Translations under genes and position numbers: made by a program
NCBI GenBank assembly: GCA_030614785.1
Contig: JAUWTJ010000012.1
Coordinates: forward strand, 1-62,771
DNA from: Alphaproteobacteria bacterium
GTDB lineage: Bacteria > Pseudomonadota > Alphaproteobacteria > M2410
Reading direction: 5' to 3'
DNA length: 62,771 nucleotides
In this document: one piece after another, positions 8,787 through 42,464 of the stretch
Layout of the letters: each line of letters starts with the position of its first letter
How positions within the stretch are numbered: position 1 is the first letter of the stretch
Notes under the pieces: generated by a model
What the model was told of the DNA's origin: nothing
The model's input: the letters and a program-made list of their open reading frames with translations, nothing else
Database searches by the model: none

Positions 8787-10214
8787 TCAATCCTTGTGCC
8801 AGTCATCAAAGTGATTTCTGATTTGGTCGGTAATGAGGAACGGCTTTTCATCACCGGCGTGGAATTTCTTGTAATAGTCCTCGTCGACATGATGGACCTG
8901 CAAGGAGAACTTGGCTCTGACCGGAGATATATAGGCAGGCGCGCAGCCGTAGTGCTCGGCGATGTAGGCAATCGTGTCTGTTGCCGCATCCACGACCCAG
9001 TCAGGAATGTGCGCCTTGGGATGTTCCATGATACGCGCAAGCGTTTCTTCCTTGAACGGCCCGCCGCTTGTCTCGGCCTGGTTTTCGTCTCTTGTGAGGA
9101 CGCCGTGCGCTCCATAGCGCGCTGCCATCACATGATCGACCGCCGATCTGGCGGTTGGGAACCAGGGTGAAGGGACGCAGACCGCCTCCATGACGTCTTT
9201 CAGGCCAATACAGCTGGCTGTCCTTGAAGGGTTCCGATCAAGATCGCGCTCAACGAAGGAAAACCCAAGGCCGGCGGCGACCTCCGGATAGGCGCCGAGC
9301 AACATATCGTCGGAATAGTTGCCGAGTGTCCAGCCACCAAGCCCGAGCGCTTCGCAGGCCAGTCGCATGTTTTGCACAACGGCTCCGGCCTGGCTGGTGT
9401 GCAGCATCAGGACCAGCTCATCAAAGACCGGCAGCGGAAAACCCACTTCAAGGAATCCCGGGCGGATCCACTGATCACAGCCGGCGGGCTTGTTGCCGTT
9501 TACATCTTCCAGATAAAACCCTGAGAAATGATACGATGACAGCAGCAGGTTGACCCATTCCCGCCCGAGATCTCCGACGGGGAGAAACCAGGTACTGCCT
9601 GGACGATTGAGATTATATTGCAGGGCGCCCATGGGCCGCACATTGTGCGTTCCAGGCGGCGCTGTGCTCCAGTCAACATCCGGTCTGGCGTCCGATATAT
9701 GGATGAGCCCGGTGCGATACCAGTTCAGCACCTTCCAGTAATCATCCGGCCCTTCAATCTCGACCGGTTTGGACCGCGCAAGACCAGGGCGATAAAGGTC
9801 AACACCCCGATCGCTAATGATCAACAGATCGACAGAGTGATCGTTGCTGGAACCTGGCGCCGTGCGTCCGGCCCAGTAGATCAGACTGGAAAGATCTCCA
9901 TTGACCGGAATGTCCGCCGCGACCATTCCGTTGGGCCCGAGCCCCGCCCAGGCGATGATCGCCTCTTCAACTTCTGTGAGGGGAACCGGGTCCTTGTCCG
10001 ATGCAAAGGAAAGCGGACCTTCCTTCTGGTGCGCGGTCCCGCCGCTTGACCACTCAAAGGTCTCGTCGGTTCCGGTTTCACTTTTGTAACCGAGCCCGAC
10101 ACGGCGCGTTCGCAGCGTCGACAGCAAATTGAAAACACTGGGGGTTGCTTCAAAGGCACGGGCAAGCGCGTCCTGTTCCTGCGGCGTTATTTCAATGGGC
10201 TTTTCATCGCTCAT
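8787..10214 (-). CDS. Large nitroreductase-fold protein
   Basis: 475-residue protein recognisable as nitroreductase-like from an N-terminal RTRR-containing flavin-phosphate region (residues ~35-45) and the family's hallmark helix ending in ALGLGGW (QNMRLACEALGLGGW, ~285-300). It is much longer than stand-alone nitroreductases (about 200 residues). Extra segments include a tryptophan-rich middle (WKVLNWYRTGLIH) and a C-terminal extension ending in HHVDEDYYKKFHAGDE. No signal peptide or membrane helix is seen. It overlaps the stop of alpha1 by ATGA, so the two are translationally coupled. A flavin-dependent redox role with the molybdoenzyme or its product is plausible but unproven. Confidence 0.7.
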   Translation of the reverse strand: MSDEKPIEITPQEQDALARAFEATPSVFNLLSTLRTRRVGLGYKSETGTDETFEWSSGGTAHQKEGPLSFASDKDPVPLTEVEEAIIAWAGLGPNGMVAADIPVNGDLSSLIYWAGRTAPGSSNDHSVDLLIISDRGVDLYRPGLARSKPVEIEGPDDYWKVLNWYRTGLIHISDARPDVDWSTAPPGTHNVRPMGALQYNLNRPGSTWFLPVGDLGREWVNLLLSSYHFSGFYLEDVNGNKPAGCDQWIRPGFLEVGFPLPVFDELVLMLHTSQAGAVVQNMRLACEALGLGGWTLGNYSDDMLLGAYPEVAAGLGFSFVERDLDRNPSRTASCIGLKDVMEAVCVPSPWFPTARSAVDHVMAARYGAHGVLTRDENQAETSGGPFKEETLARIMEHPKAHIPDWVVDAATDTIAYIAEHYGCAPAYISPVRAKFSLQVHHVDEDYYKKFHAGDEKPFLITDQIRNHFDDWHKD

Positions 10215-12979: not shown

Positions 12980-12990
12980 ATGTCTCTCCC

Positions 12991-13665
12991 TCAGGACCGG
13001 ATATGTTGCATATCTGCTTTTGCAAAACCGGCGGCTGTTTTAGCGGCCCATACCCAGAACGGCATGGTCTCCGCAGCTTCCACCTTTGCGGCAAACTCCT
13101 GCAACCAATCGACAAACTGGCGCTCAAGAAAGTCATCCTGGGCACGGTGGAACGAGACGCCAAGGCGCGGCGATGGGGACGCCGCCTCCTTGAAGGCCAG
13201 ATACTGCATAAATTCACATTCCGTTGCCAGATGGTCGGGCGGCCTTGGATCGTCGGGAGTTGTTGTCAGCCCGAAGTATTCAAAGAAGCGGGCAACCTCT
13301 TCCATCTTCTTGCGACGATCAACGCCGCCATAGGCGCCGCCAACAATAGGTGCCGGGGGACCATCACCGCTGCCGACATCAAACACCCTGATATACTCAG
13401 CCTGAAAGTCTTCAGCGCTGACAGAGCCATCAAGGGAGGCCTCACCAAAATCGAAATCATAGGCGAGCAGCTCAGCGGCCTCACGCAGCTTTTCCGGCCA
13501 CTTGCCGTCCACCGCCAGTTGATGCGCCTCGGCATCCGGAGCAATAAACAGCTTACCGAAGGTCTGGTAAACCCCCGAGCGCGCCGTGATCTCGTTGTCC
13601 TCGATTTCTACATCTTTGGCCAGATCGCCGTCGATCTTCAGCCCATCAAGTGAATATACAAACAT
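12991..13665 (-). CDS. TorD/DmsD-family molybdoenzyme chaperone
   Basis: 224-residue all-helical protein of the TorD family, dedicated chaperones that assist cofactor insertion into molybdoenzyme alpha subunits (in Tat-exported enzymes they also guard the signal peptide). Family signs are the Y-x-x-F-G-K-L-F helix near residue 35, the AEYIRVFDVG segment (~88-98) and the PPDHLATECEFMQYLAFKE helix (~143-162) that corresponds to the (P)DHLxxELxFM signature. It sits 31 bp after beta1 and 11 bp before alpha1. Because the alpha proteins in this operon have no Tat signal, the role is more likely cofactor loading than export proofreading, as for NarJ with NarG. Confidence 0.88.
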   Translation of the reverse strand: MFVYSLDGLKIDGDLAKDVEIEDNEITARSGVYQTFGKLFIAPDAEAHQLAVDGKWPEKLREAAELLAYDFDFGEASLDGSVSAEDFQAEYIRVFDVGSGDGPPAPIVGGAYGGVDRRKKMEEVARFFEYFGLTTTPDDPRPPDHLATECEFMQYLAFKEAASPSPRLGVSFHRAQDDFLERQFVDWLQEFAAKVEAAETMPFWVWAAKTAAGFAKADMQHIRS

Positions 13666-13696
13666 CGTTACTCAAGCTCCCGTTTAACCAATTACT

Positions 13697-14731
13697 TCAG
13701 TCAGCCGCGTTGATCAGAGCCGGATCCGCTGTAAAGGGGCCGAGCAACTCTTCCCATTTGTAAGCGATCAGGGTTTTCATCAGATCGGACTCCTTGCCTT
13801 CACGCCTCTTGTCCATTTCGCTCTGAAGGGTCTTCAGAGCAACATGAACATCAGGCCCAAAGAGACCTTCCAGATATTCAGGCGGAATGCGTGACTTGTC
13901 GGTATTGATGGACATATCTTCATTGAGCGGATGCGGCGACAGAGGCGGAATGTAATAGACATTCGGCCGTGTGCCATATTCAGGATGAAGCGGCAGGGCA
14001 ATCTTGTGTTCATGGACCAACCGGTTCACCGGACTGCCAGCTTCATCGAGCCAGCCGATAAAGACCGCGCGACCTGGACACTGCCGCACGCAGGCAGGAG
14101 CAACCCCCGCCTCAATCCGCGGGAAGCAGCCAATACAATGTTGCGCGACATTCTTTTCCTCGTTGAAGTAGATCTTCTTGTAGGGACACGCTGCCATGCA
14201 GTCCTTGCTACCCTTGCAGACATCCTCGTCTCTGAGCACCAGACCATCATCCCGCTTGTACATCGCCTTTGACGGACAGGCCTCGACACAAGCAGGTTTT
14301 GTGCAGTGATTGCAAAGGCGCGGCATATAGAAATAATAGGAGTTTGGCCATTCGCCTGCGCCCTGATCCTCGTCCCAGTTCATCGCCCAGCGCCCTTCTC
14401 GGGGCGCTTGAGGCTCGAGATGTTTCTTGCCAGCCGAACCGCCGTAAAACACCTCTTCGTGGTTGAAGTCGAAACCACCGCCGAAGTCTTCGGGCGTCGG
14501 CGTCTTGCCCGGGGAAAGTTTGCCATCGGCATCATAGCCGCCGCCCATATTCTCCCAGCCGCGCGGCGTGCCTTCGCCTGGCTGCGTGTTCACCGAACAC
14601 CACCACTGAGCCTTTTCGCTGTCGTCACGGGTCCACAGAACCTTGCACGCCACAGAACAGGTCTGACAGCCGATACATTTATTCAAATCAACCACCCAGG
14701 CGATTTGATGTTTTTCTGTTGCAGCGTTCAT
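13697..14731 (-). CDS. Iron-sulfur beta subunit of type II molybdoenzyme (beta1)
   Basis: 344-residue electron-transfer subunit homologous to EbdB, DdhB and NarH. It has four cysteine groups: CIGCQTCSVAC near the N-terminus, CNHCTKPACVEAC, CKGSKDCMAAC, and CIGCFPRI...CVRQC. In the third group the position that would complete a cubane is Ser, so by analogy with NarH (Trp there) this should be the [3Fe-4S] cluster; the others would be [4Fe-4S]. The family's conserved PLHPEYGTxPNVYY segment is present. The ATG overlaps the stop codon of alpha2 by ATGA, pairing it with alpha2. It may also serve alpha1 and alpha3, which have no beta genes. Confidence 0.93.
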   Translation of the reverse strand: MNAATEKHQIAWVVDLNKCIGCQTCSVACKVLWTRDDSEKAQWWCSVNTQPGEGTPRGWENMGGGYDADGKLSPGKTPTPEDFGGGFDFNHEEVFYGGSAGKKHLEPQAPREGRWAMNWDEDQGAGEWPNSYYFYMPRLCNHCTKPACVEACPSKAMYKRDDGLVLRDEDVCKGSKDCMAACPYKKIYFNEEKNVAQHCIGCFPRIEAGVAPACVRQCPGRAVFIGWLDEAGSPVNRLVHEHKIALPLHPEYGTRPNVYYIPPLSPHPLNEDMSINTDKSRIPPEYLEGLFGPDVHVALKTLQSEMDKRREGKESDLMKTLIAYKWEELLGPFTADPALINAAD

Positions 14732-17523
14732 AGGGCTTCCTCCACTTTCTCGTAATCACACCGGGTCCAGCGCGATACGGGCACTGGTTGCCATTCAATC
14801 GGGAAGTAATTCAGATGGCCATAGCCACCGGCGAACCCGATCCACTTCACCATCCCCGGTTCGGTCTCGTTTTCACCACTCCATTCTGTATACTGAAATC
14901 CTGCCCAGCCATTGTAGGATATGAGCTGGCCCGGCTTCACATTGGGAGCAATCTTGGTCCGAACCTTGAATTCGCCGACGTCATTGAAGACGCGAATAAG
15001 CTCGTCGTCCCCGATACCGCGCGCTTTGGCATCATCGGGATTGATCATGACATTCGGCTCACCGCGGTGCGTCCCGAGGATCACTTCATTGGCCTGGTTC
15101 ATGGCATGAATGGACCAACGGTTATGTCCCGAGGTAATGCCGATAGGATAGTCTCCACCGGCCATCGGATTGGGCTTGTGCGTCGGGAGATGCTCTTCGG
15201 CTTCAAGGAACCACTCGTGATCAATGTAGAACTGGGCGCGCCGCGCATAAGTCGGGAACGGGTCCCCGCCTTCCGTATGATTGCGGAACGGCACATGGGT
15301 CTTGTCTTTTTCGATCGGAGAGGCCTGAGCCGAACCCATGCCGGTCACACCAAAGTCGACAAACCTCGCCGGGCCGTTTTCCCGCAGGCTTTCAAGGTTG
15401 GTACCCATTGGCAGTGTGCCGCAAAGAACCGAGTCCCGAACGCCTTCGTCGTTGATTTTCTCCTCATCCATATTGCCATCTTCGTCTTCATAATACCCGC
15501 CCATGGTGAAGCGGCTGAGCAACTCGCCGATTACCCGCTTGTCACCGGTATGAAGATCGTATTCCTCAATACCCCGCTCCTTGGCCTTTTTGACAAACTT
15601 CTTGAGCAGGTGATAGAAAATATTCCATTCAGACCTTGCCTCACCTGGCGAATCTGCGGCCTTGTCGGACAGGTTGAGATTGAGCACATGCGGGGTCGGT
15701 ATACTGAACCCGATCTTCTCATAGTGTTGGGCCGCAGGCAGCACATAATCTGCATAAAGAGCGGTCTGACTGATGCGGAAGTCAATCGTAACAATCTTTT
15801 TCAGTTTCGGCCACAAGGTATCGAGCAATGCCGTCTTGCCACCGCGTGTCCGGCGCAGCATATTGCCGCCGCACTCAATCAAAACGCGGGGCGGATCAAC
15901 CGGCGGCCTTTTCCACCATCCAGCTTCCATGGCTTCGTCCATATACTCCTGGAAGCCGCGAGGCAGGCTGTCATCGCCCCATCCCGGCGTGTTCCAACGT
16001 TCGCCATAGCCGCAATGATTATACCAGAAGAGAGCCGGTATCGCCGCTAGTGGTTGCTCAGCCCCTTCGCCGAGCCGCTGGGAATCGCGGATAGCGATTT
16101 CAAGTGTCGCTGATGGATCCTTGTCCATAAATTCCTGGAACTGCGCTTCACGAGCGGCGATTACCATCGAGGCGGCCTGCGCACCGGGCGCCGGTTTTTC
16201 GATGGCGATGAACTGCCCCTCGTGCATGCCTGAGGCCCAGCACCGGATACCGGTGCCCTGCTTGCCCCAGTTGCCGGTTACGCCAAGAAGCAGGCACATG
16301 GCACGTTCAATCAGGTCACCGTGATAGAACTTGCAGGCATTATAGCCCAGCATGATATTTGTCCGCTTCGCCGCAACCATGCGAGCAATCAGACGGATCG
16401 TATCCGGATGAACGCCGGTAATCTCTTGCTGCTGCTCGGGGGTATACTTCGCATCGAGATGTTCCTTGAGAGCCACCAGAGCAGGGCGCACCTGAACCGT
16501 GGAACCGTCGGCAAGCTTGACATCAAAAGTGCCTTCAAGGGCGATCTGCAAACCATTCAGACGCATATCGGCGCGATCTGCCAGCTTCAGTCCACTCGCC
16601 GGATCCCATTGATACATCTGATCCTCGCGGCCTTCGCCGGTGACATCCGTTTCGCGAAGGTAGCGCCGCGTATCGGTGCGAACCAGATAGCCAAGGTCGG
16701 TTTGTTCTCGCATGAAGTCGTAGTCAGCAATGCCCTCTTCCAGAATGACCTGAACCATCGAGATGCCAAAGGCCGGATCTGTCGCCCCATTGATGGGAAC
16801 CTGAATATCGGCATGGAGGTGCGACGGATTAATGTCTGGTGAAATATTGATCACCTGGCAACCGTTGTAACGAGCCTCGGCAATGAAGTGATAGAATGGT
16901 ATCCGGGTGAAGACCGGGTTCATGTGCCAGATCAAAATGACCTCTGAATGGAACCAGTCATCTGCCGAGGAAACCGGCGAAAACTTGCCGAAGGTCTCAT
17001 AGAGGCCGATGGAAAAGTCGTTTATCGAACCGTTCAGATCAATGTCGCCGCCGCCAATGGTGCCAAAGAACTTGTTGGTCGGATGAACGGTCGCGTATTC
17101 CGGCGTGCCCTCATGGATCACCGTGTGCGGGCCAAACTCCTCAATGGCATCCAGCATGGACTCAGCGATATCGTCCAGGGCGTCGTCCCAGCTCACACGG
17201 TTCCACTTTCCTTCGCCGCGCTCGCCAACTCTTTTGAGTGGGTATAAAAGCCGGTCCGGACCATAGAGCGATTGGCTCCACGAGGCCCCCTTCTGACACC
17301 CCATGGGGTTAAAGTCCGGCACGCCCTCTTCAATGGTATTGAAACTGCCGGCCTGTTCCTCGCGCCAGACGATACCGTCCTTGACATAGACACGCATCGG
17401 GCAGCTGCCCGGGTAACAGTCGACACAATGGGAGCCCCAATAAACCTCGTCCCACTGCCACTTGTCTCGATAGAGATCTTCCCAACCTGAATAGATGGGA
17501 TCCTTGTCCACTTTGGCATCCAT
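14728..17523 (-). CDS. Type II molybdoenzyme alpha subunit (alpha2), cytoplasmic type
   Basis: 931-residue catalytic subunit of the NarG/EbdA/C25-dehydrogenase branch. Cluster ligands are His32, Cys36, Cys41 and Cys76 (NPMGCQKG); the putative Mo-ligand aspartate lies in NDFSIGLYETFG. The C-terminal cofactor-binding domain ends near GYGHLNYFPIEWQP. Start at 17523 is chosen because GGAGG lies 9 bases upstream; the longer frame would add 34 residues unlike any paralogue. No Tat motif is present in either version. It is followed by its beta subunit with a 4-bp overlap. Wording of motifs is very close to alpha3 and alpha4 (HCxDCYPG(S/N)CPMRV(Y/F)), so these three form a closer subgroup than alpha1 or alpha5. 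Confidence 0.92.
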   Translation of the reverse strand: MDAKVDKDPIYSGWEDLYRDKWQWDEVYWGSHCVDCYPGSCPMRVYVKDGIVWREEQAGSFNTIEEGVPDFNPMGCQKGASWSQSLYGPDRLLYPLKRVGERGEGKWNRVSWDDALDDIAESMLDAIEEFGPHTVIHEGTPEYATVHPTNKFFGTIGGGDIDLNGSINDFSIGLYETFGKFSPVSSADDWFHSEVILIWHMNPVFTRIPFYHFIAEARYNGCQVINISPDINPSHLHADIQVPINGATDPAFGISMVQVILEEGIADYDFMREQTDLGYLVRTDTRRYLRETDVTGEGREDQMYQWDPASGLKLADRADMRLNGLQIALEGTFDVKLADGSTVQVRPALVALKEHLDAKYTPEQQQEITGVHPDTIRLIARMVAAKRTNIMLGYNACKFYHGDLIERAMCLLLGVTGNWGKQGTGIRCWASGMHEGQFIAIEKPAPGAQAASMVIAAREAQFQEFMDKDPSATLEIAIRDSQRLGEGAEQPLAAIPALFWYNHCGYGERWNTPGWGDDSLPRGFQEYMDEAMEAGWWKRPPVDPPRVLIECGGNMLRRTRGGKTALLDTLWPKLKKIVTIDFRISQTALYADYVLPAAQHYEKIGFSIPTPHVLNLNLSDKAADSPGEARSEWNIFYHLLKKFVKKAKERGIEEYDLHTGDKRVIGELLSRFTMGGYYEDEDGNMDEEKINDEGVRDSVLCGTLPMGTNLESLRENGPARFVDFGVTGMGSAQASPIEKDKTHVPFRNHTEGGDPFPTYARRAQFYIDHEWFLEAEEHLPTHKPNPMAGGDYPIGITSGHNRWSIHAMNQANEVILGTHRGEPNVMINPDDAKARGIGDDELIRVFNDVGEFKVRTKIAPNVKPGQLISYNGWAGFQYTEWSGENETEPGMVKWIGFAGGYGHLNYFPIEWQPVPVSRWTRCDYEKVEEAL

Positions 17524-17801
17524 TTTAAAATATCCTCCACCGCAAATTTTCACGCAGGAAATTCTCACGCCTGATAGCACGCTAGCAGAGTCTGGCATTT
17601 CGAAATTGACATCGGTCAACGCCAACCGTGTATGCGCCTGACAGCGCGCACCTGATTCACTCTTTTGTGATCTATGAACATGAAACCGACGTGTCTTGCT
17701 AACTTCTCGGTGTTAGGCCGCATGCTGATTGTTGTTTGTTATAATGTTAACTCACAGTACGGACAAATTAGTCGATAGCCTCACCTCAGATCCAATCGAT
17801 A
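17524..17801. other. Intergenic region ahead of alpha2, with inverted repeat
   Basis: No coding sequence seen. This is the promoter region of the alpha2-beta1-TorD-alpha1-downstream operon on the minus strand and the 3' side of the MFS gene. It holds the inverted repeat TTGAC-ATCG-GTCAA at 17606-17619, about 85 bp before the alpha2 start, a plausible operator position. No convincing intrinsic terminator was found after the MFS gene, so read-through from the alpha3 operon is possible. Confidence 0.5.
17606..17619. promoter_or_regulatory. Candidate operator: TTGAC-N4-GTCAA
   Basis: Perfect 5-bp arms separated by 4 bases, upstream of the alpha2 operon. A similar TGAC/GTCA repeat with a 5-base spacer lies before alpha3 at 23303-23317. 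No factor can be named. Confidence 0.35.
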
Positions 17802-19085
17802 CTAAGATGCGGAAACATTGTCACGCATCCGAACGGCTTGTCCTGTAGCACGGTCAAGGTGTCTGAGTGTCGGTACAAGGACGATGACCACGGCCACCAG
17901 GACTGTACAAAGTATCGTTGATCCGATGAGTAAGGTTTCCATACCTATTAAATCCGCGCCAAACCCGAGCAGAAGCGCATTCACCTGGGCAATGGCGCCG
18001 CTTAACATGAACAGGGACATGACCCGACCGCGCACTTCATTCGGAACAATCTGCTGCACCAGTGCGGTGCCGCTTATGCTGGCGGCAGTCCAGGCCGCAC
18101 CATTGATCAGATAGGCAAGTCCGGCAAGCGGAATGGATCGCGCTAGCCCGAAGGCGAGGAAGGAAAGACCGAACAAAAAGGAGCCAATAACAAAGATCCT
18201 CCCGTGTCGGCGAATATCACCTCTCCAGGACATGAACCAGGATGCTGCCAGCGTTCCAACGCCCCATGTGGCGGCAAGCAGCCCGTATTGTCCGGGCGCC
18301 ATGCCCAAAACATCGCCGGCCCACTTTGCGATGAGCCCGTGAAAAAGGGTGAAACCAAACGCTCCGGTGATAAATCCCAGCAGAATGATCCAGAGAATAA
18401 CGCTCTGGCCCCGCACATAGGAAATACCGGAGTGGATTGTCACCCAGACAGGCTCGTGTCTGGCGGCACGCGGCTCACCTCTGTAGCGCAGCAGCATCAG
18501 GGCCACGAGAATGCCGACATTCCCCAGTGTGCTCACCAGGTAGGCGCCGCCGGGACCGATGCCATCAATCACAAAACCGGCGAGGATCGGCGTCACAGCA
18601 AAGCTGCCCATCATGGCGGCGGTTGTCAATGCCACTGCATTGGGAATATGGCGCTCTGGAACCAGTTCCGGAATGAGGGCCTGCCGGATCGGTGCATCGA
18701 TTGAACCGGCCGCAGCGCCGATAAAGATCAGGAAAAAGATCACCGGCAGGGATGTGAACCCCAGAACCACCATAAGGCCAAGGGCCGCCGCAACGATGAG
18801 GGCGACAATTTCCGTCACAAAAAGAAGTTTGCGCCGATCCATCCGGTCTGCCAGCGCGCCGCCATAAAGCCCGAAAAGAAGCGTCGCCAGACCGCGAACA
18901 GCGCCAAGGCCGCCCAGTATCCACGCCGATCCGGTGATCGAATAGATCAGCCACATTTGCGCGTAGTACTGAAAGGCCAGCGTGCCGGAGGCAAACACCA
19001 TCCCGATCCACAGGACCCGGAAGTCGCGGGTGTAAAGCGCCGGAAATCGTACTCTGTCGGCAATTGCACTCTCAGGCTCATTCAT
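17802..19085 (-). CDS. MFS permease (MFS_3/EntS-like), second of a tandem pair
   Basis: 427-residue major facilitator with about 12 membrane helices. The loop 2-3 signature of the superfamily is present as GGALADRMDRRKLLF, and a matching second-half motif lies in the central loop. The N-terminal FPALYTRDFRVLWIGMVFASG is nearly the same as in the preceding gene, with which it overlaps by ATGA; the two are evident tandem duplicates. Related proteins (EntS-type) export siderophores or small hydrophobic molecules, but the substrate here is unknown. It could move the substrate or product of the neighbouring alpha3 enzyme. Confidence 0.88.
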   Translation of the reverse strand: MNEPESAIADRVRFPALYTRDFRVLWIGMVFASGTLAFQYYAQMWLIYSITGSAWILGGLGAVRGLATLLFGLYGGALADRMDRRKLLFVTEIVALIVAAALGLMVVLGFTSLPVIFFLIFIGAAAGSIDAPIRQALIPELVPERHIPNAVALTTAAMMGSFAVTPILAGFVIDGIGPGGAYLVSTLGNVGILVALMLLRYRGEPRAARHEPVWVTIHSGISYVRGQSVILWIILLGFITGAFGFTLFHGLIAKWAGDVLGMAPGQYGLLAATWGVGTLAASWFMSWRGDIRRHGRIFVIGSFLFGLSFLAFGLARSIPLAGLAYLINGAAWTAASISGTALVQQIVPNEVRGRVMSLFMLSGAIAQVNALLLGFGADLIGMETLLIGSTILCTVLVAVVIVLVPTLRHLDRATGQAVRMRDNVSAS

Positions 19086-20410
19086 GGATTGACCTCCTCC
19101 AGAGTTGCTGCTCCAGCGGGAGCAGTTTCAGAAGCCTCCCCTTGCTTACGGTCCGCCATGATTGTAGCGGCAAATCGATCCAGATGTCTCAGAGTTGGCA
19201 CAGCGATAACCAGGATGCAAACCAGAACAGTGCATAGAAGCGTGGTCCCGACAAAAAGCATCTTGATGCCCAGCACATCGACACCAAAGCCCAACATCAT
19301 GGCATTCACCTGGGCAAGCGCGCCACTCATCATCAGGAGGGACATAACCCGTCCGCGCACTTCGTTCGGGACAATCTTCTGGACCAGAGCCGTCCCGCTG
19401 ATACTGGCGGCAGTAAAGGCCGCTCCATTAATGACGAAGACAAGCGCGACAAGTGGAATGGACCGAACCAGAGCGAAGGCGAGGCACGACAAGGCAAAAG
19501 CGAGAGAGCCTACCAGGAAAATTCGCCCATGCCGGCGAATGTTGCCGGCCCACGACATTGTATAGGCGGCAGCGAGGGTCCCGACGCCCCACGTCGCATC
19601 GAGCAATCCGTATTGACCGGGCGTCAGCCCCAGAATGTCCGCCGCCCACATGACCACAGGCCCGTGGTAAATGGCAAATCCGAAAGCACCCGTAATGAAG
19701 CCGACCAGAATGATCCACAGGACGATACTCTGCCCGCGTACCCAGGTTATCCCGGTGCCAATCATCCTGATAACAGGCTCATGTCGGGATGTCCGTGGAG
19801 CGCCGCGATAACGCAACAACACAAGAGCAACCAGGATACCGACATTGCCCAGAGTACTCACCAGATAGGCACCGCCGGGCCCGATTCCATCAATCACCAA
19901 TCCGGCCAAAATCGGCGTCAGGGCGAAGCTGCCCATCATCGCCGCCGTGGTCAAAGCCACAGCATTTGGAATGTGACGCGCGGGGACCAGTTCCGGGATC
20001 AAGACCTGTCTGATAGGTGCATCAATCGAGCCCGCCGCAGAACCGATAAAGATAAGCGCGAAAATGAGCGGGAGCGACGTGATGCCCGCGAGCACCAGCA
20101 CACCGAGCGTCGCGGCGACGACAAGGGCGACGGTCTCTGTCACGAACAAGAGCCTGCGCCTGTCCATGCGATCCGCAAGCGCCCCGCCATAGAGGCCAAA
20201 GATCAAGGTCGCCAGACCACGGGCAGCACCAAGCCCGCCGAGAATCCAGGCCGATCCCGTGATCGAATAAATCAGCCACATCTGTGCATAGTACTGAAAC
20301 GCAAGCGTGCCTGAGGCAAACACCATCCCGATCCACAGGACCCGAAAGTCGCGATGATAGAGCGCCGGAAAACGCACGCGTTCGGGACCTGCCAACTCGG
20401 GACTACTCAT
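19082..20410 (-). CDS. MFS permease (MFS_3/EntS-like), first of a tandem pair
   Basis: 442-residue 12-helix major facilitator, paralogous along its whole length to the following gene: both share YYAQMWLIYSITGSAWILGG in the first helices and the GNVGILVAL helix. The loop 2-3 motif is GGALADRMDRRRLLF. It starts 8 bp after the alpha3 stop codon, so it is cotranscribed with a molybdoenzyme alpha subunit. A tail of about 20 residues rich in Glu, Ala and Thr (KQGEASETAPAGAA) is absent from the partner. Two closely related permeases in tandem might form a heteromeric pair or serve substrate and product separately. Confidence 0.88.
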   Translation of the reverse strand: MSSPELAGPERVRFPALYHRDFRVLWIGMVFASGTLAFQYYAQMWLIYSITGSAWILGGLGAARGLATLIFGLYGGALADRMDRRRLLFVTETVALVVAATLGVLVLAGITSLPLIFALIFIGSAAGSIDAPIRQVLIPELVPARHIPNAVALTTAAMMGSFALTPILAGLVIDGIGPGGAYLVSTLGNVGILVALVLLRYRGAPRTSRHEPVIRMIGTGITWVRGQSIVLWIILVGFITGAFGFAIYHGPVVMWAADILGLTPGQYGLLDATWGVGTLAAAYTMSWAGNIRRHGRIFLVGSLAFALSCLAFALVRSIPLVALVFVINGAAFTAASISGTALVQKIVPNEVRGRVMSLLMMSGALAQVNAMMLGFGVDVLGIKMLFVGTTLLCTVLVCILVIAVPTLRHLDRFAATIMADRKQGEASETAPAGAATLEEVNP

Positions 20411-20418
20411 AGACCAGG

Positions 20419-23256
20419 TTACTCCGCAGCGACACGCTCGGCAGCGGCAAGTTCGAAGTCACACCTGACCCATCGATCAATCGGGACCGGCTGCCACCCG
20501 AGGAAGGAAAAGTTGAGATGACCATAGCCACCGGAAAAACCGCTCCACTTGACCATGCCAGGCTCGATCTCGTTGGCCCCGCTCCAGTCCTTATACTGTA
20601 GAGGCTCCCAGCCATTGTAGGAAATGATCTGGCCCGGCTTGACGTTGGGCGCAACCTTTGCCCGCGAGGAGAACTCACTGACATCGTTGAAGATCCTGAT
20701 CAGATCATCATCCTTGACGCCTCTTGCCTTCGCATCATCAGGATTGATCATCACGTTCGGCGAACCACGGTGCGTCCCGAGCACTGTCTTGTTCATATGG
20801 TTCATGGAGTGGACGGACCAGCGATTGTGACCGGAGGTGAGCCCCATGGGATAGTCGCCGCCCATCGACGGGTTTGGTTTGTGGGTTGGAAGCTGCTCAC
20901 CGGATTCCAGAAACCATTCATGGTCGATGTAGAACTGGGCGCGCCTCGCATAGGCCGGATAGGGATCACCATTTTCCACATGATTACGGAACGGGGTATG
21001 CGGCTTGTTGGTTTCAAAGGGCGAGGCCTGTGTCAAGGCCCCCGGCATCATGCCCCAGTCAATAAAGCGAACAAATCCGGTCTCGCGCAGGGTCTCAAGG
21101 GTCGTGCCTTCCGGCAGTGTCCCGGCCAGCACCGAATCACGCACCTGTTCGTCTGCAACAATTTCCTCGTTGGCATAGTAGCCATTCATAGTGAACTTGC
21201 CGACCAGCTCGTCATACTGATGCATCTTGCCTTCGGGGTCTTCAAACCTCTCCAGGCCTCGTTCCTTTGCGCGGCGCTCAATCGCGCCAAGAAGTTCAGA
21301 AAAGATCAGCCATTCACTCTTTGCTTCCCCGGCTGGTTCAACAACCTTGTCGGCAAGCGTAAGGTTCATCACCTGGGGACCGGTAATGGCGAAGTTGACC
21401 TTCTCGTAGTGTTGTGCCGCAGGAAGGAAGTAGTCTGAATACATCGCCGTAGTCGACAGTCTGAAATCAATGTCGACAATGGTCTTCAGTTTGGGCCACA
21501 AGGTTTCCATGAGGACTTTCTTGCCACCTCTGGAGCGCCGAACCATATTGCCGCCACACTCAATCAAGACCTGGGGAACCTCGTCCTTGCGCGGATGGTC
21601 AAGACCGGCCCACCAGCCCTTCTCGAGGGCTTCATTGAAATATTCATCAAAGGATCTTGGCAGCGATGTGTCACCCCACTCCCGGGTGTTCCACCGTTCG
21701 GCATATTCCGACTGGTAGTACCACCAGAAGGCCGGGACCGAATTTGCGGCCATGGGGGCTTCTTCATTTGAGGGGGGCACAAAGTCACCGAGCAGACCGC
21801 GTGTCCCCTTGGTCAACTCAAGCATGGCCAGCTCCGTTGTCATGGTCGGATCAAGCTGCTTGATAAAATCAACCGCCTCTTCGCGCGAATTCAGAACCTG
21901 TTCCGCGGCCATCAAGCCGGGTTTGTTCTTGCCCATTGCCAGTTGCGATCCGTCCATCAGTGCCGCTGCCCAGCACCGGATACCCGTTCCCTTGCGGCCC
22001 CAGTTTCCGGTCACACCAATGGCCAGACACATCGCGCGTTCGATCAGATCTCCGTGATAAATCTTGCAGGCATTCATACCGTGCATGATGGTGGTACGCT
22101 TGGCCGCCATCTTGCGCGCCAGCAATCGAACCGTGTCCGGGTGAACGCCGGTGATTTCCTGCTGCAGCTCCGGGGTATAGTATTTATCCACGTGTTCGCG
22201 CAGAAGATCGCAGACCGGCCTTACCAGAACTTCCTTTCCATCGGCCAGTGAGACATTGAACGCACCGGAGAGGGCAGCCTTCATACCGTTCAATTTGAGA
22301 TTGCCACGATTGGCCCGCACCGGGCCCTCTGCGGGATCCCATTGGTACAACTGATCCTCGCGGCCTTCCGGGGCCATGTCGATTTCACGCAGGTAACGCC
22401 CGGTATCGGTGCGCACCAGAAGAGAGAGGTCGGTTTGCTCCCTGATGAATTCCCAATCTGCGATATCCTCTTCAAATACGACCTGAACAATGGAAAGTGC
22501 AAACGCGGCGTCGGTCGTGCCGTTGATGGTGATCTGATAGTCCGCATGGGTGTGGGAGGGATTGATATCGGGAGAGATGTTGAAAATTTCAGTGCCGTTG
22601 TAGCGGGCTTCGGAAACGAAATGATAGAACGGTATCCGTGTGAAAACCGGATTGGAATGCCAGAACAGGATGACCTCCGCCAGGAACCAGTCATCCGCCG
22701 AACTTTCGATCTGCATCTTGCCGTAGGTCAGGTATACGCCGGGATTGAAATCTCCGATGGAACCGTTGAGATCCATGGAGAAGCCGCCAAGCGCGTCGAA
22801 GAAACGCGTGGTTGGGCCAACAACGGCCGTTTCCGGCGTCCCATCGCGCACAACAGAGCGCGGCCCATGAACTTCGATCGCATCAAGAATATCATCCGCT
22901 ATTTCGCCGAGAGCCTGATCCCATGAGATTCGCTCCCACTCGCCTGCACCACGCTCGCCAACCCGCTTAAGCGGGTACATGGCCCGATCCGGACCATCGA
23001 GCGACTGGTTCCAGCACGTGCCCTGCATGCAGCCCATTGGATTGTAATCAGGCACACCCGGATCAATAGTCGGCAAAGTCCCTGATGGTTCTTCACGCAC
23101 GATCTTGCCGTCCTTGACAAAGACGCGCATCGGGCAGTTTCCAGGATAACAGTCTGTGCAGTGCGTCCCCCACTTGACTTCATCAAATGTGATATTCTCT
23201 CTGTATCTGTCGTTTGAAGGTGAAGAGGCTGTGCGATCTTTTCTGATTGTTGACAT
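20419..23256 (-). CDS. Type II molybdoenzyme alpha subunit (alpha3), cytoplasmic type, without its own beta gene
   Basis: 945-residue catalytic subunit close to alpha2. Cluster ligands are His32, Cys36, Cys41 and the cysteine of NPMGCMQG (here the usual QKG is MQG); the putative Mo aspartate is in GDFNPGVYLTYG. Start at 23256 is preferred because GGGATCGAG lies just upstream; an in-frame ATG at 23295 has no ribosome binding site. Neither version has a Tat motif. It is followed by two MFS permeases and, unlike the other alphas, has no beta, gamma or chaperone gene in its operon, so it must borrow these from elsewhere or work differently. Confidence 0.9.
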   Translation of the reverse strand: MSTIRKDRTASSPSNDRYRENITFDEVKWGTHCTDCYPGNCPMRVFVKDGKIVREEPSGTLPTIDPGVPDYNPMGCMQGTCWNQSLDGPDRAMYPLKRVGERGAGEWERISWDQALGEIADDILDAIEVHGPRSVVRDGTPETAVVGPTTRFFDALGGFSMDLNGSIGDFNPGVYLTYGKMQIESSADDWFLAEVILFWHSNPVFTRIPFYHFVSEARYNGTEIFNISPDINPSHTHADYQITINGTTDAAFALSIVQVVFEEDIADWEFIREQTDLSLLVRTDTGRYLREIDMAPEGREDQLYQWDPAEGPVRANRGNLKLNGMKAALSGAFNVSLADGKEVLVRPVCDLLREHVDKYYTPELQQEITGVHPDTVRLLARKMAAKRTTIMHGMNACKIYHGDLIERAMCLAIGVTGNWGRKGTGIRCWAAALMDGSQLAMGKNKPGLMAAEQVLNSREEAVDFIKQLDPTMTTELAMLELTKGTRGLLGDFVPPSNEEAPMAANSVPAFWWYYQSEYAERWNTREWGDTSLPRSFDEYFNEALEKGWWAGLDHPRKDEVPQVLIECGGNMVRRSRGGKKVLMETLWPKLKTIVDIDFRLSTTAMYSDYFLPAAQHYEKVNFAITGPQVMNLTLADKVVEPAGEAKSEWLIFSELLGAIERRAKERGLERFEDPEGKMHQYDELVGKFTMNGYYANEEIVADEQVRDSVLAGTLPEGTTLETLRETGFVRFIDWGMMPGALTQASPFETNKPHTPFRNHVENGDPYPAYARRAQFYIDHEWFLESGEQLPTHKPNPSMGGDYPMGLTSGHNRWSVHSMNHMNKTVLGTHRGSPNVMINPDDAKARGVKDDDLIRIFNDVSEFSSRAKVAPNVKPGQIISYNGWEPLQYKDWSGANEIEPGMVKWSGFSGGYGHLNFSFLGWQPVPIDRWVRCDFELAAAERVAAE

Positions 23257-23302
23257 GGTCAATCTCGATCCCTGGCTAAAAAATGATGTTGTCATGAAAA
23301 CG

Positions 23303-29186: not shown

Positions 29187-30227
29187 ATGACTTCTCAGAA
29201 TCGTCAAATAGCCATGGTCTTTGACCTGAACAAATGTATCGGCTGCCAGACTTGTTCCGTCGCCTGTAAAGTGCTGTGGACCCGCAATGAAGGCACCGAC
29301 TATCAGTGGTGGTGCACGGTCAACACCGTCCCCGGGCAAGGCAGCCCGAAGGGGTGGGAGGCTATGGGCGGCGGCTACAAGGACGACACGCTCACGCTCG
29401 GTAAGTTGCCGGAGCGCTCCGAGTTTGGCGGCGGCTGGGACTTCAATTACGACGAGGTCTTCTACGGCAAGGGCAAAGGCGCAGGGGGGGGCCAGGTACC
29501 GCTGCGGGTCAAGGGCGAACAACCGACCTGGGGGCCCAACTGGGATGAAGACCAGGGCGGCGGCAAATACCCGAATAGCTACTATTATTACTTGCCCCGG
29601 CTTTGTAATCACTGCACGCGGCCAGCCTGTGTCGAGGCCTGTCCGTCAAAGGCCATGTACAAGCGCCCCGAGGATGGCATTGTGCTGAGAGACGAGGCGA
29701 AGTGTGAAGGGTCGCAGGACTGCGCCAAAGCCTGTCCCTACAAGAAGATCTTCTTCAACCACGAGCGCGGTGTCAGCCAGCACTGCATTATGTGCCTGCC
29801 GCGCATCGAGGACGGTGTGGCGCCTGCCTGTGCCCGCCAGTGTCCGGGCCGCGCGGTCTTTGTCGGCTTCCTTGATGACACGTCCGGCCCGATCCACAAG
29901 CTGGTCAACGAGTGGAAAGTAGCCATGCCACTGCATCCTGAATATGGCACAAAGCCCAACATGTATTATGTCCCGCCGATCGGTCCCAAACCGATCAACG
30001 CGGATGGATCGATTGATGAGGACACCAACCGCATTCCTGACGCGCTGCTGGAAGAACAGTTTGGCCCCGATGTCCATCAGGCGCTGGCGACACTCCAGGG
30101 CGAAATGGCCAAAACCCGTGAAGGCGGCAAGTCCGCCCTGATGGATATTCTGATTGCCTATCAGTGGAAGGAGCTGTTCTCCGAGTTCACCGTCGACCCG
30201 GTCGATGTTGAACAGGAGGGCCAATAG
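29187..30227 (+). CDS. Iron-sulfur beta subunit of type II molybdoenzyme (beta2)
   Basis: 346-residue homologue of EbdB/DdhB/NarH. Four cysteine groups are visible: CIGCQTCSVAC, CNHCTRPACVEAC, CEGSQDCAKAC and CIMCLPRI...CARQC, with Ser in the third group at the position of the NarH Trp, implying a [3Fe-4S] cluster there. The conserved PLHPEYGTKPNMYYVPP segment precedes the C-terminal helix bundle. A small insertion rich in Gly/Lys (YGKGKGAGGGQ, residues ~93-103) distinguishes it from beta1 and beta3. It is the expected partner of alpha4 and has no signal peptide. No gamma-subunit gene follows. Confidence 0.93.
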   Translation: MTSQNRQIAMVFDLNKCIGCQTCSVACKVLWTRNEGTDYQWWCTVNTVPGQGSPKGWEAMGGGYKDDTLTLGKLPERSEFGGGWDFNYDEVFYGKGKGAGGGQVPLRVKGEQPTWGPNWDEDQGGGKYPNSYYYYLPRLCNHCTRPACVEACPSKAMYKRPEDGIVLRDEAKCEGSQDCAKACPYKKIFFNHERGVSQHCIMCLPRIEDGVAPACARQCPGRAVFVGFLDDTSGPIHKLVNEWKVAMPLHPEYGTKPNMYYVPPIGPKPINADGSIDEDTNRIPDALLEEQFGPDVHQALATLQGEMAKTREGGKSALMDILIAYQWKELFSEFTVDPVDVEQEGQ

Positions 30228-33032: not shown

Positions 33033-33054
33033 GCCTGATCTCTCTCTTAGAAAA

Positions 33055-33180
33055 TTATCGAATTTCGAAGATCAAAGTTGACCCGCCGGATTCGTAATCC
33101 AGAATGTCAACGTCCACCAGAGGGGTCATGTGAATGAGGACCATAATAAGAGAAATGGCAGGGACTTTTAATCGATTCAT
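33055..33180 (-). CDS. Possible 41-residue membrane peptide
   Basis: Short frame between the TonB receptor and the PepSY gene, same strand. It begins MNRLKVPAISLIMVLIHM, a basic start followed by one hydrophobic helix, then an acidic stretch ending FEIR. It fills nearly all of the space between its neighbours and ends 22 bp before the next start. The ribosome binding site is weak (GGAC about 10 bases upstream). I do not recognise a family. It may be a small operon-encoded membrane protein or a chance frame. Confidence 0.35.
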   Translation of the reverse strand: MNRLKVPAISLIMVLIHMTPLVDVDILDYESGGSTLIFEIR

Positions 33181-33266
33181 CAGTTCGTCCAAATCAATGT
33201 AACTTCAAAACATTAGTTGAAAAACGGGCGGACCGACGCCCGCCCGAACTTGTTACAACCCTGAGA

Positions 33267-37014: not shown

Positions 37015-37216
37015 TTGGCTTTCCCCTGATTTGAGCTATCGAGTTCAAAGACAACGCCCACGACACTTCGAGCCTTGCTTGCCGGGGCCTGCCACAGACT
37101 ATATCCAAACACACTGATGATGCAATCCAACGGGAAGCAGGGTGTTTCAAGCAGAGCCGGACAGCTTTTATAATCTCGACGATGCAGTGGCCTGCCCGCA
37201 CTTCAGCCTCGCCAGA

Positions 37217-37840
37217 TCACTTGGATGTCGAGCAGTGACCAAGTTCATGCTCCACGTGGCATTCCAGCAGGCGGGCCAGCTGATCATAGGGCTCGATGTT
37301 CACGGTGTGAAGTTTATCTACAATGCCTTTTACCAGTGGAACAAGGTGTCGATCCAGAAAGTCATATTGTCCGCGTTGCAGGGACAAGACATCCTCTTGC
37401 CTCACAGCGATCGATTCCAGATGGCTGAGATACTGCATAAAGTCCAATTCCACCAGAAGTGAATCCGGCCAATGGACATTGTCACTGTTTTTTAGATCAA
37501 GTCCGAAATGCTCATAGAAACGAAACAGCTCCTCAAACAACTCGTTTGCAACGGCGCGCGTGTAGGCTCTTTCGTGAAATGACACCGCCGGATTACCGAC
37601 TTCAAAACTGGATGAATAGACCTGAGCCAGTCCTTTGAAATCTCCGCCGCCTTGAAATCTATGTTTATCCAGGTCCAGCCCGCAGGTCGACAACACCTCG
37701 CTGGATGGCATGGCTCTGAACGATCCTTCAGCCAAAGCGTCCAACCAGACTTCACGTGCCGGTGGACCGAACCATGTTGCGAACAGTCGATACGCCTGGG
37801 CTCGCGTCTCTGGCCGTACCTTTGTTATAGTTGCAGCCAC
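37217..37840 (-). CDS. TorD/DmsD-family chaperone of the alpha5 operon
   Basis: About 207 residues if translation begins at the GTG at 37840, which touches the gamma-subunit stop codon and has GAGG about 8 bases upstream; earlier in-frame ATGs at 37903-37915 would overlap gamma by 60-70 bp. TorD features are RAQAYRLFATWF near the start, the FKGLAQVYSSSFEVG segment and PDSLLVELDFMQYLSHLE, the family signature helix. Near the C-terminus is a His/Cys cluster (ECHVEHELGHC). It is encoded last in the alpha-beta-gamma set, the place of the delta chaperone in ethylbenzene and dimethylsulfide dehydrogenase operons. Confidence 0.85.
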   Translation of the reverse strand: MAATITKVRPETRAQAYRLFATWFGPPAREVWLDALAEGSFRAMPSSEVLSTCGLDLDKHRFQGGGDFKGLAQVYSSSFEVGNPAVSFHERAYTRAVANELFEELFRFYEHFGLDLKNSDNVHWPDSLLVELDFMQYLSHLESIAVRQEDVLSLQRGQYDFLDRHLVPLVKGIVDKLHTVNIEPYDQLARLLECHVEHELGHCSTSK

Positions 37841-37841
37841 A

Positions 37842-38495
37842 TCAGGCCTCAATTTCCAACGGTTCCCATTCAACCGAAACAGATTTTTGAGCTGACCGGT
37901 CATCATTGCCGCCATCCCAGACAGCAAATGATATACCTGCGACTTTGTCGGGAGCAAAGCTGACCTGCCGATCGGAGAACATCCCTGCACGTAAAGCTCT
38001 TTGAAAAACTACTGACCAACGGCCGTTCTCATGGACCGACGCCACTGACAACCCGAGTTCTTTTCCCGAGCGGCGCTGACTGCTTCCAAACCCGTGAGCG
38101 ATGACGTCAAACGGCTCTGCCATATTCGCCCGCCAGAACCAGGCATTGACCGGGTTTTTCTCGTCGCCCATGGTCATGGGGTCAGCCTGATCAGTGAGCG
38201 GAAACAGCACTGCAACCCCGTCGACGAATTGATCCAGATCCCTGATCTCATCATTGCGGGTCTTGTCTTCCCAGGACAGATGCACCGAAATCTTCTTGCC
38301 ATTATGCGCGATCCGGCTTTCAATCTGGTCGACCTTGCCGTGCTCCGTACTCATAGCCATGAAGGTAGAGAGGTGTTCAACCATCGTGATTGGTGTCGGG
38401 ACCAGATCGAACTGCCCGGCTCCGGATTGACCCCACAGCTCGTTATGTGGATCAAGGAAGTGATCAGACTGTTTATTGATATAGGGTACTTTCAT
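37842..38495 (-). CDS. Haem-b gamma subunit of type II molybdoenzyme (EbdC/DdhC-like)
   Basis: 217-residue subunit of the ethylbenzene-dehydrogenase haem-binding family, which passes electrons from the beta-subunit clusters to a periplasmic cytochrome. In EbdC the haem is held by Met and Lys; likely equivalents are Met107 or Met109 in DPMTMGDEKNP and Lys204 in SAQKSVSVEW. The family's NAWFWRA and ISFAVWDGGN motifs are present. ATG at 38495 has GGGAGGC about 8 bases upstream. No signal peptide is visible, and the preceding stop of beta3 leaves no room for one, so the protein would have to be co-exported with the Tat-dependent alpha5. Confidence 0.88.
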   Translation of the reverse strand: MKVPYINKQSDHFLDPHNELWGQSGAGQFDLVPTPITMVEHLSTFMAMSTEHGKVDQIESRIAHNGKKISVHLSWEDKTRNDEIRDLDQFVDGVAVLFPLTDQADPMTMGDEKNPVNAWFWRANMAEPFDVIAHGFGSSQRRSGKELGLSVASVHENGRWSVVFQRALRAGMFSDRQVSFAPDKVAGISFAVWDGGNDDRSAQKSVSVEWEPLEIEA

Positions 38496-38509
38496 CTGTC
38501 TTGCCTCCC

Positions 38510-39562
38510 TCAAACCGGATGGTTCGTGAATTCAGCGAACCGGTCCTGCCATTTGCGACTGATCAGAAGATCCATGAGCGCGGAGTCGCCGCCGCTCTTT
38601 TTCTTTTCTCTTTCTGCCAGCAGGATTGCCAGAGCCTTGTGAACTTCCTTGCCAAAATAACTCTCCAGAACTGAATCCGGTATGCGCATCTTGTCGGTTA
38701 GCTCATCATCACTGTCAAAAGCCCAGGGCGACATTGGTGGCACGTAAAAGACATTGGGCGACGTGCCATATTCAGGATGGAGCGGGATCGCAACCTTGTA
38801 TTTCTCCACCAGTTTGTGCACCAGGCTATTCTCGTCATCAAGAAAACCCATTGCACGCGTCCGGCCAGGGCACTGACGATTGCAGGCGGTGGCGATCCCC
38901 TTGTCGAGGCGAGGGAAGCACTCGATGCATTTTTCGCTTTTCTCTTTTGCCGGATTGAAAAAGACCATCTTGTAAGGACAGGCAGCAACACAATGTCGAT
39001 GCCCTTCACATTTGTCCTGGTCGATCAGGACGACGCCATCTTCGCGCTTGTAAATGGCGTTTCTGGAACAGGCATCCACGCAGGCCGGGTGGCTGCAGTG
39101 ATTACATTTGCGCGGCAGGTAGAAAAAGTAGGGATTTGGCCACTCGCCCTTGCCCTGATCTTCATCCCAGTTATAGCCCCACTCCGGTGACCCTCCGAGG
39201 GCCGAAGTCGGTTCCAGCTTTCTATTTTGGGCATTTCCTTCGTTGAACACTTCTTGATGATTGAACGTGAACGCGTCTCCGCAATCGACCAGTGACGGCA
39301 AGTCTCCCGGCTGCGGGTTTCCACTCTTGTCATAACCGCCGCCCTTCTTCTCAAAGTCGCGGGGATATAGAGCCCCTGGCGCTGTCGCGACACTCATCCA
39401 GCGCATGTGGTGTGCGTCGTCGCGCTCGGTCCACAGGTTCTTGCAGGCTACAGTGCAAGACTGGCACCCCATACATTTGTTGAGATCAATGACGGTCGCA
39501 ATCTGACGATCCGACTTCATCAATTCCTGTTTTGTGGGAATGGACTTGTTCAACATTTTCAT
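38510..39562 (-). CDS. Iron-sulfur beta subunit of type II molybdoenzyme (beta3)
   Basis: 350-residue homologue of EbdB/DdhB/NarH, begun 1 bp after the alpha5 stop. Cysteine groups are CMGCQSCTVAC, CNHCSHPACVDAC, CEGHRHCVAAC and CIECFPRL...CNRQC. In the third group His stands where NarH has Trp and beta1/beta2 have Ser, so the [3Fe-4S] prediction still holds. PLHPEYGTSPNVFYVPP is conserved. It has an N-terminal extension of about 15 residues compared with the other betas. No signal peptide; in the periplasmic members of this family beta is carried across by the Tat signal of alpha. Confidence 0.93.
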   Translation of the reverse strand: MKMLNKSIPTKQELMKSDRQIATVIDLNKCMGCQSCTVACKNLWTERDDAHHMRWMSVATAPGALYPRDFEKKGGGYDKSGNPQPGDLPSLVDCGDAFTFNHQEVFNEGNAQNRKLEPTSALGGSPEWGYNWDEDQGKGEWPNPYFFYLPRKCNHCSHPACVDACSRNAIYKREDGVVLIDQDKCEGHRHCVAACPYKMVFFNPAKEKSEKCIECFPRLDKGIATACNRQCPGRTRAMGFLDDENSLVHKLVEKYKVAIPLHPEYGTSPNVFYVPPMSPWAFDSDDELTDKMRIPDSVLESYFGKEVHKALAILLAEREKKKSGGDSALMDLLISRKWQDRFAEFTNHPV

Positions 39563-39563
39563 T

Positions 39564-42464: not shown

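Follow-up and report, generated by a model that had tools for sequence, protein, structure and literature searches.

Five type II molybdoenzyme alpha subunits are encoded in the window, the 62,771-nucleotide stretch of the alphaproteobacterial contig JAUWTJ010000012.1 analysed here. Four of them (alpha1 to alpha4) carry no export signal, keep intact cofactor sites and are accompanied by beta subunits with intact Fe-S sites and by delta chaperones. Alphas outnumber betas, and alpha1 forms a fixed pair with a gene termed X475. The substrate, direction and electron partner of alpha1-4 we infer. In the reading that we prefer, with a probability of roughly 0.5, alpha1-4 would be cytoplasmic water-dependent hydroxylases or dehydrogenases that act as interchangeable alphas on shared beta subunits, with a rerouted electron exit, and alpha5 would be a separate periplasmic enzyme.

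Table 1. Features of the molybdoenzyme cluster, in window coordinates
Feature	Position	Strand	Remarks
Second CopD-like membrane protein	7698..8183	-	alpha1 cassette; 28.5 bits, under the 32.1-bit CopD cut-off
CopD-like membrane protein	8205..8771	-	alpha1 cassette
AMP-binding (adenylate-forming) protein	6523..7683	-	alpha1 cassette; degenerate, short
X475	8787..10214	-	predicted nitroreductase fold, probably FMN protein; ORF overlaps alpha1 end by 4 nt
alpha1	10211..12979	-	Mo catalytic subunit, no export signal
delta1	12991..13665	-	NarJ/TorD-like assembly chaperone
beta1	13697..14731	-	Fe-S Cys motifs as in EbdB; just under TIGR03478 cut-off
alpha2	14728..17625	-	likely start Met35, about 17523; 4-nt overlap with beta1; no gamma between
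Two tandem MFS transporters	17802..20410	-	between alpha2 and alpha3
alpha3	20419..23295	-	nearest window paralogue alpha2 (62%); no own beta adjoining
delta4	25725..26363	+	chaperone
alpha4	26393..29167	+	no signal; delta upstream, beta downstream
beta4	29187..30227	+	just under TIGR03478 cut-off
delta5	37217..37990	-	chaperone; ORF overlaps gamma5, true start probably downstream
gamma5	37842..38513	-	heme-b-type, inferred ligands Met115 and Lys210; no own signal peptide
beta5	38510..39562	-	over TIGR03478 cut-off
alpha5	ORF 39564-42638, Tat-bearing start at 42464	-	EbdA sister

Two kinds of alpha subunit

The five alpha reading frames, of 922-1024 amino acids, are all intact. Each matches TIGR03479 over nearly its full length at 840-943 bits, all below the curated cut-off of 984.75, and the NarG model TIGR01580 at 164-249 bits (196-249 for alpha1-4 alone), under its cut-off of 1084. 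The FS0 His-Cys3 site, the NP-M-(G/A)-C motif and the Mo-ligand aspartate (EbdA Asp223) are kept in 5/5, and all five thus have the Asp, the FS0 His and the three Cys of the type II (Asp-ligated) DMSO reductase subfamily. Within alpha1-4, identities to alpha1 and alpha4 are 44-48%; alpha5 is 38% identical to alpha1. A profile from our own alignment detected no further alpha of this branch in the whole genome at E<=1e-100, and three more distant molybdopterin proteins are encoded elsewhere in it. In gammaproteobacterial relatives an MFS gene likewise lies beside alpha2/alpha3.

Alpha5 begins with a Tat signal, PRRDFLKLSGGAAGLSL, and combines it with the other marks of the ethylbenzene dehydrogenase (EBDH) type, namely kinship to EbdA, His192 and a gamma subunit with Met/Lys heme ligands. 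Against NF042978, the model of ethylbenzene dehydrogenase proper, it reaches 1185 bits, under the 2000-bit cut-off. On its sequence, alpha5 is a separate, predicted periplasmic ethylbenzene-dehydrogenase-like enzyme. Alpha1-4 lack both the Tat signal on alpha and the tree position with EbdA that mark periplasmic EBDH/S25DH-type enzymes. An earlier account of this DNA, made without database searches (the sequence-only reading), had described five intact alphas, four of them without signals, and this is confirmed; it had also treated all five as one kind, which is not upheld, as alpha5 goes with ethylbenzene dehydrogenase and alpha1-4 do not.

Export signals and cellular location

No Tat motif occurs in alpha1-4 between the listed start and the FS0 site. 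The stretches up to the preceding stop (20, 29, 6 and 8 residues) hold no start codon, and thus none of the overlooked Tat starts that the sequence-only reading had named as a danger to its proposal; read by eye, they hold no hydrophobic segment, and an RR pair is present in that of alpha1 and that of alpha2. Among 127 sequences of the clade to which alpha1-4 belong (see below), five of them cut at the 5' end, the Tat score exceeds the threshold in three, none credible, being upstream read-through or lying inside the start of the cofactor domain. Outside the clade 21 sequences were examined. Ten are Tat-positive, including ClrA, a haloarchaeal enzyme and alpha5, and the 11 negatives are NarG, mature EbdA and PcrA fragments, and eight signal-less uncharacterised sequences. 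Given the lack of a signal throughout the clade, alpha1-4 are very probably cytoplasmic.

The accessory subunits are consistent with this location. By eye, the window beta has no signal, and clade gammas mostly begin without one, at a Met near the mature start; Sec-type starts are seen in ClrC and the haloarchaeal gamma, and a hydrophobic one in the L055 gamma, whose neighbouring alpha lies outside the clade. As gamma5 itself has no signal, gamma alone is uninformative on location. Hitch-hiking is known for the beta and gamma subunits of exported relatives, and alpha1-4 might be exported by this or another unrecognised route; the signal-less window beta and clade gammas, together with an absence of Tat signals on alpha that is consistent across 127 sequences, make this very unlikely. 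The cytoplasmic sub-branch that had been proposed from the window is therefore borne out as a signal-less sub-branch that is distinct from ethylbenzene dehydrogenase and has many more members than could be guessed from the window. The accompanying statement that only NarG-type enzymes stay inside agrees with a table of characterised type II enzymes (PMC10100899, partial text) and does not agree with the uncharacterised sequences found here.

Phylogeny and distribution

Trees were built with FastTree from 149 sequences and with IQ-TREE from 44, along with a smaller tree of 23; S25dA, CmdA, AhyA, SerA and DdhA are absent from them. Alpha1-4 fall in one clade with support of 100/99 (44 sequences), 94/95 (23 sequences) and 0.70 (FastTree). 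Alpha5 and EbdA are sisters (100/100 in the 44-sequence tree) and are also paired by FastTree. Nearest to the alpha1-4 clade are three Tat-bearing Chloroflexota alphas (83/74), then EbdA and alpha5; ClrA, PcrA, the haloarchaeal enzyme and NarG lie outside both groupings, three of the reference sequences (NarG, ClrA and a PcrA-like one) being on long branches in the 44-sequence tree. Judged by these trees, alpha1-4 belong to a widespread, uncharacterised clade nested among Tat-exported type II Mo-bisPGD enzymes. The phylogeny that the sequence-only reading had called for, run with NarG, EbdA, ClrA and PcrA among the references, thus places alpha5 beside EbdA and alpha1-4 in a separate clade.

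Within the clade, alpha1, alpha2/alpha3 and alpha4 occupy different subclades, each with members from other phyla, and are therefore not recent tandem copies. The smaller trees pair alpha2 with alpha3; in the 149-sequence tree the two are separated by Chloroflexota alpha2 sequences (support 0.52). At least four changes of signal state are needed on the 44-sequence tree, NarG included. A topology in which all signal-less sequences share one origin was rejected (p-AU 6.2e-05, 23 sequences, with groups named after the tree had been seen). The three Tat-bearing Chloroflexota alphas (L043 14053, L048 6050 and L062 9840) should be useful for placing the change of location. Five other Chloroflexota alphas, signal-less and outside the main clade (L036 3847, L037 4151, L038 7210, L043 3036 and L062 1919), have Cys in place of the FS0 His, for example GTCNQADCIAAC, which suggests an all-Cys FS0; this His is apparently fully conserved in subfamily II (PMC8840923, partial text).

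Genome contigs were scanned and yielded 309 relatives, of which the 80 best, in 74 loci all titled metagenome-assembled, come from Gammaproteobacteria, Chloroflexota, Acidobacteriota, Actinomycetota groups, and 'Deltaproteobacteria' or Myxococcales. Six records of a plasmid collection matched at E<=1e-50 with 30-35% identity, some of them haloarchaeal enzymes and some chlorate reductases. The class of the host was sampled with 385 genomes, in each of which no more than two candidates were scored (E<=1e-100); matches occurred only in this genome and in three of one other family, and the sequences taken from two of these three fall with ClrA and have Tat motifs. Genomes carrying benzoyl-CoA reductase, from three of ten carrier families, gave no match (0/9, 0/1 and 0/15). 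Peptides read from published ahyA primers (PMC7803848, partial text) occur in 0/149 tree sequences. A literature search, mostly outside subscription journals, found neither a signal-less sub-branch nor a nitroreductase partner of it.

Active-site residues

In EbdA numbering, Asp223, Lys450, His453 and Asp455 are present in 127/127 clade sequences, and the FS0 His82 in 125/127, the remaining two being cut before it. Asn222 is found in 112/127 and Cys83 in 118/127. His192, present in EbdA and alpha5, occurs in none of the 127. In S25DH, the lysine is described as keeping the aspartate monodentate and the site as having no His (PMC6153880, a review, partial text). An argument against hydroxylation from the absence of His192 was dropped, as S25DH also lacks that His. 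Lys450 is also found in ClrA, a chlorate reductase, so that these residues fit hydroxylation and leave the oxidative direction unproven. Exactly the 15 sequences of the alpha1 subclade have Leu at 481 and 87, where EbdA has Trp, which points to a different pocket.

Probable sharing of beta subunits and the absence of gamma

For its five alphas the window encodes three beta, three delta and one gamma genes, and searches of the whole genome found no beta beyond these three and no gamma besides gamma5, which adjoins alpha5. Two four-cluster beta and two delta genes lie beside alpha1/alpha2 and alpha4, and none beside alpha3; no heme-b gamma of the EBDH/Clr architecture adjoins alpha1-4 in this genome. 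Such an excess of alphas recurs in 30 of 32 genomes, with equal numbers in the other two and totals of 240 alphas against 98 betas (ranges per genome: alphas 2 to 15, counted at E<=1e-150; betas 1 to 8, counted at E<=1e-80); the counts are rough, as models and cut-offs differ and a limited number of candidates was scored. These genomes were reached via 35 loci; one locus had no accessible genome, and two pairs of loci share a genome each. Since alphas outnumber betas so generally, beta is quite likely shared between alphas. In Sterolibacterium denitrificans, alphas are proposed to share beta-gamma units, and recombinants have made use of this (PMC6016249, partial text).

Operon maps of the loci, made by tblastn, show a recurrent order of alpha2 (or an alpha4- or alpha3-like gene), gamma, beta, delta, alpha1, X475 and a membrane protein, often extended by a second membrane protein and the AMP-binding gene, in Gammaproteobacteria, Chloroflexota and Actinomycetota. 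An alpha4-like gene precedes this operon in Chloroflexota, and a beta4-delta4-alpha4 set follows it in gammaproteobacterial relatives. Of the alphas mapped in the clade, 19 have gamma and then beta downstream, and six have beta directly. The missing gamma, which had been read as a trait of the sub-branch, is therefore true of alpha1-4 here and of the alpha4 set, which likewise comes without its own gamma in the gammaproteobacterial relatives (L001, L035 and L040), and does not extend to the sub-branch as a whole. In the alpha2/alpha3 subclade, gamma lies between alpha and beta in 9/9 cases with a downstream beta in the sequence; these gammas are signal-less, and it is at the same junction, alpha2-beta1, that the window lacks one.

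Published work names a Met and a Lys as heme ligands of gamma (PMC8840923, partial text); we took them to be the Met and Lys common to EbdC, NXR-C, ClrC, the haloarchaeal gamma and gamma5, a residue assignment of our own. On this basis, none of the 13 gammas in the alpha1 module (two assigned by contig), among 36 in all, keeps both ligands; the Met survives in three and the Lys in one. Outside the module both are present in 15/23, and of the eight that do not keep both one is cut short. As ligands are also lost in these eight, the loss is not tied to X475. Many alpha and gamma sequences are closely related, and the counts of both are not independent.

The alpha1-X475 cassette

X475 lies directly downstream of alpha in 15/15 alpha1-subclade sequences, with at most 102 nt between matches, and downstream of none of the 109 other clade sequences from loci, 92 of which have more than 1 kb of downstream sequence. 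The pair is usually accompanied by two CopD-like membrane proteins and a degenerate adenylate-forming enzyme. Against PF00881 the window X475 scores 18.1 bits, under the gathering score of 23.5, and 18 of 33 X475 homologues match at E<=0.01 (best 5.5e-06); profile matches in the PDB are nitroreductase-family in 9/9 cases, all weak (E 0.39-1.1). An AlphaFold model from 33 sequences reached a pTM of 0.88 (from 14 sequences it was poor, pLDDT 41.6 and pTM 0.37) and superimposes on the FMN nitroreductase 8cqs_A with Z 15.2 over 182 residues at 2.5 A; after FMN nitroreductases, the next structural matches are the oxidases ThcOx and BmdC. The modelled X475 has the nitroreductase fold and is probably an FMN protein.

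X475, a fragment of it or a distant homologue occurs in 49/393 sampled genomes of the class of L012 (E<=1e-10). At the loci of twelve close homologues from that search (L127-L138, about half from genomes already in the set), the CopD-like gene was found in 12/12, the AMP-binding gene in 10/12 and alpha1 upstream in 10/12, the two loci without alpha1 being cut inside X475. X475, CopD-like and AMP-binding genes also stand together without an alpha in L157, where a CofH-like radical SAM gene is near, and in L158; L159 has them too and is cut 0.7 kb upstream. In L160, X475-like, CopD-like and AMP-binding genes adjoin thiolase and CoA-transferase genes, and no alpha was found.

X475 may therefore serve alpha1 or act on its product. 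That it is the electron partner of alpha1 can be held only tentatively, as the cassette without alpha in L157 and L158 suggests that it may not be. It is possible in the same measure that X475, the membrane proteins and the AMP-binding protein form a separate pathway step after alpha1, taking its acid or CoA product as substrate, with which the alpha-free cassettes, including that beside thiolase and CoA-transferase genes, would agree; the strict adjacency of alpha1 and X475, their 4-nt overlap in the window, and L161, where a distant X475 homologue shares a contig with beta, gamma, MobA and MobB genes, argue the other way. A role of X475 as acceptor for all alphas was weakened by its restriction to the alpha1 subclade and its occurrence without alpha.

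Other genes near the cluster

A glycyl radical enzyme and its activase are encoded at 2705-5983, with no NCBIfam cut-off reached (587 bits against 678 for PFL2-3); L054 has a related pair beside beta and alpha genes. Between alpha3 and alpha4 (23612-25484) lie a SoxC-type sulfite dehydrogenase (506 bits, cut-off 420) and then a c-type cytochrome. The region 30430-35969 encodes a PepSY-TM protein fused to an NqrF-like ferredoxin/FAD/NAD reductase, a second PepSY protein and a TonB receptor, none with a homologue in the tblastn-mapped loci. Further redox enzymes stand beside the alpha cluster at 44805-51800, which holds genes for a TetR regulator, a methyltransferase, a DHODB-like Fe-S protein, a GltD-like flavoprotein and a 2-oxoacid:acceptor oxidoreductase alpha subunit. 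MobA-like, MobB/FmdE, SDR, acyl-CoA synthetase and thiolase-like genes recur near the alphas of relatives, in 3 to 7 loci each with one representative scanned per cluster.

Proposed function and alternatives

In the reading that we prefer, delta would load the cofactor into alpha in the cytoplasm, and alphas of differing substrate preference would bind to beta units that they share. At the Mo(VI)=O site, a C-H substrate would then be hydroxylated or dehydrogenated with water inside the cell, and electrons would run from FS0 to FS4 and leave via beta, not towards a periplasmic cytochrome c but towards an acceptor in the cytoplasm or the membrane. A gamma that kept its heme could pass electrons on. 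In the alpha1 module, where the heme of gamma is lost, they might go to the flavin of X475 or to the CopD-like pair, and from there to quinone or NAD(P). The products would feed CoA-type catabolism. For the oxidative direction of alpha1-4 the balance is slightly favourable. A bolder version, which we regard as speculative and doubtful, is a cytoplasmic 'plug-in' Mo platform with up to 15 interchangeable alphas per genome on one or a few beta hubs, in which the ancestral heme-b exit of the alpha1 module would have decayed stepwise, the heme ligands being lost and gamma then deleted, and been replaced by the nitroreductase-fold flavoprotein and the CopD-like pair.

The direction could also be the reverse. 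As cytoplasmic reductases, alpha1-4 would receive electrons via beta, with NAD(P)H as their source and X475 as the carrier in the alpha1 module, and reduce an oxidised organic or inorganic substrate. Nitroreductase-fold proteins commonly use NAD(P)H, Lys450 is common to chlorate reductase, the His192 of EbdA is absent throughout the clade, and the cytoplasmic NarG is a reductase. The clade, however, adjoins EbdA with alpha5 and the Tat-bearing Chloroflexota group, not NarG, PcrA or ClrA, and X475 goes with the alpha1 subclade only and thus cannot be the general electron donor. We consider reductases unlikely on this evidence. Still less likely is that alpha1-4 are steroid or terpene hydroxylases of the usual S25DH/CmDH type whose signals happen to be missing. 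The number of paralogues and the sharing of beta resemble Sterolibacterium (PMC6016249, partial text), and S25DH, too, has no active-site His (PMC6153880, partial text); S25DH and S26DH are, however, described as bearing Tat sequences (PMC7411048, partial text), and alpha1-4 fall outside the EbdA and alpha5 group, whereas S25DH and CmDH are said to subcluster with EbDH (PMC6016249).

Significance

For characterised members of the EbdA branch a periplasmic location is listed (PMC10100899, partial text), and EbDH presumably passes its electrons to cytochrome c (PMC8840923, partial text). The signal-less, paralogue-rich clade, in Chloroflexota, Actinomycetota and others, is a large related set of enzymes in which no assayed member was found. 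The genes ebdA, cmdA and ahyA are scored as markers of hydrocarbon degradation and have been reported in sediments and in a Dehalococcoidia genome (PMC12529799 and PMC6472368, both partial texts). Surveys of these markers may be counting members of the signal-less clade, a putative overlap, and some environmental genes labelled as those of hydrocarbon degraders may do something else. The series of gammas with ligands present, with ligands lost and with the gene gone makes the question of electron exit testable by expression of one operon. If the plug-in version were true, oxygen-independent C-H hydroxylation would be cytoplasmic and flavin-linked in several phyla known here only from metagenomes.

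Comparison with known systems

With EbdABC (PDB 2IVF), alpha1-4 and their betas share whole-length homology, Asp223, Lys450, the FS0 ligands and the beta clusters. They differ in having no Tat signal, no His192 and no gamma beside them here, in a Cys next to the FS0 His, and in an Asn at 222 in three of the four alphas; in relatives, the gammas of the alpha1 module have lost the heme ligands that EbdABC keeps. The C25/C26 dehydrogenases of Sterolibacterium denitrificans, which were compared by description only, offer a likeness in their eight alphas, fewer beta-gamma sets and essential chaperone, and the published S25DH resembles alpha1-4 in its lack of an active-site His. Unlike alpha1-4, they are described as Tat-bearing and heme-b containing. 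The parallel with Sterolibacterium drawn in the sequence-only reading thus stands for paralogue number and beta-gamma sharing (PMC6016249) and falls short for the Tat sequences described for S25DH and S26DH (PMC7411048). NarGHJI is, as alpha1-4 and their betas probably are, a cytoplasmic alpha-beta unit with a NarJ-like chaperone, but the alphas of 922-965 amino acids are short against the 1235-position NarG model, and the NarG used has His at the position of Lys450. PcrAB and ClrABDC share the Asp ligand and FS0, and ClrA also Lys450; both lie outside the group formed by EbdA and the alpha1-4 clade, and ClrA is Tat-bearing, with a Sec-type signal on its gamma.
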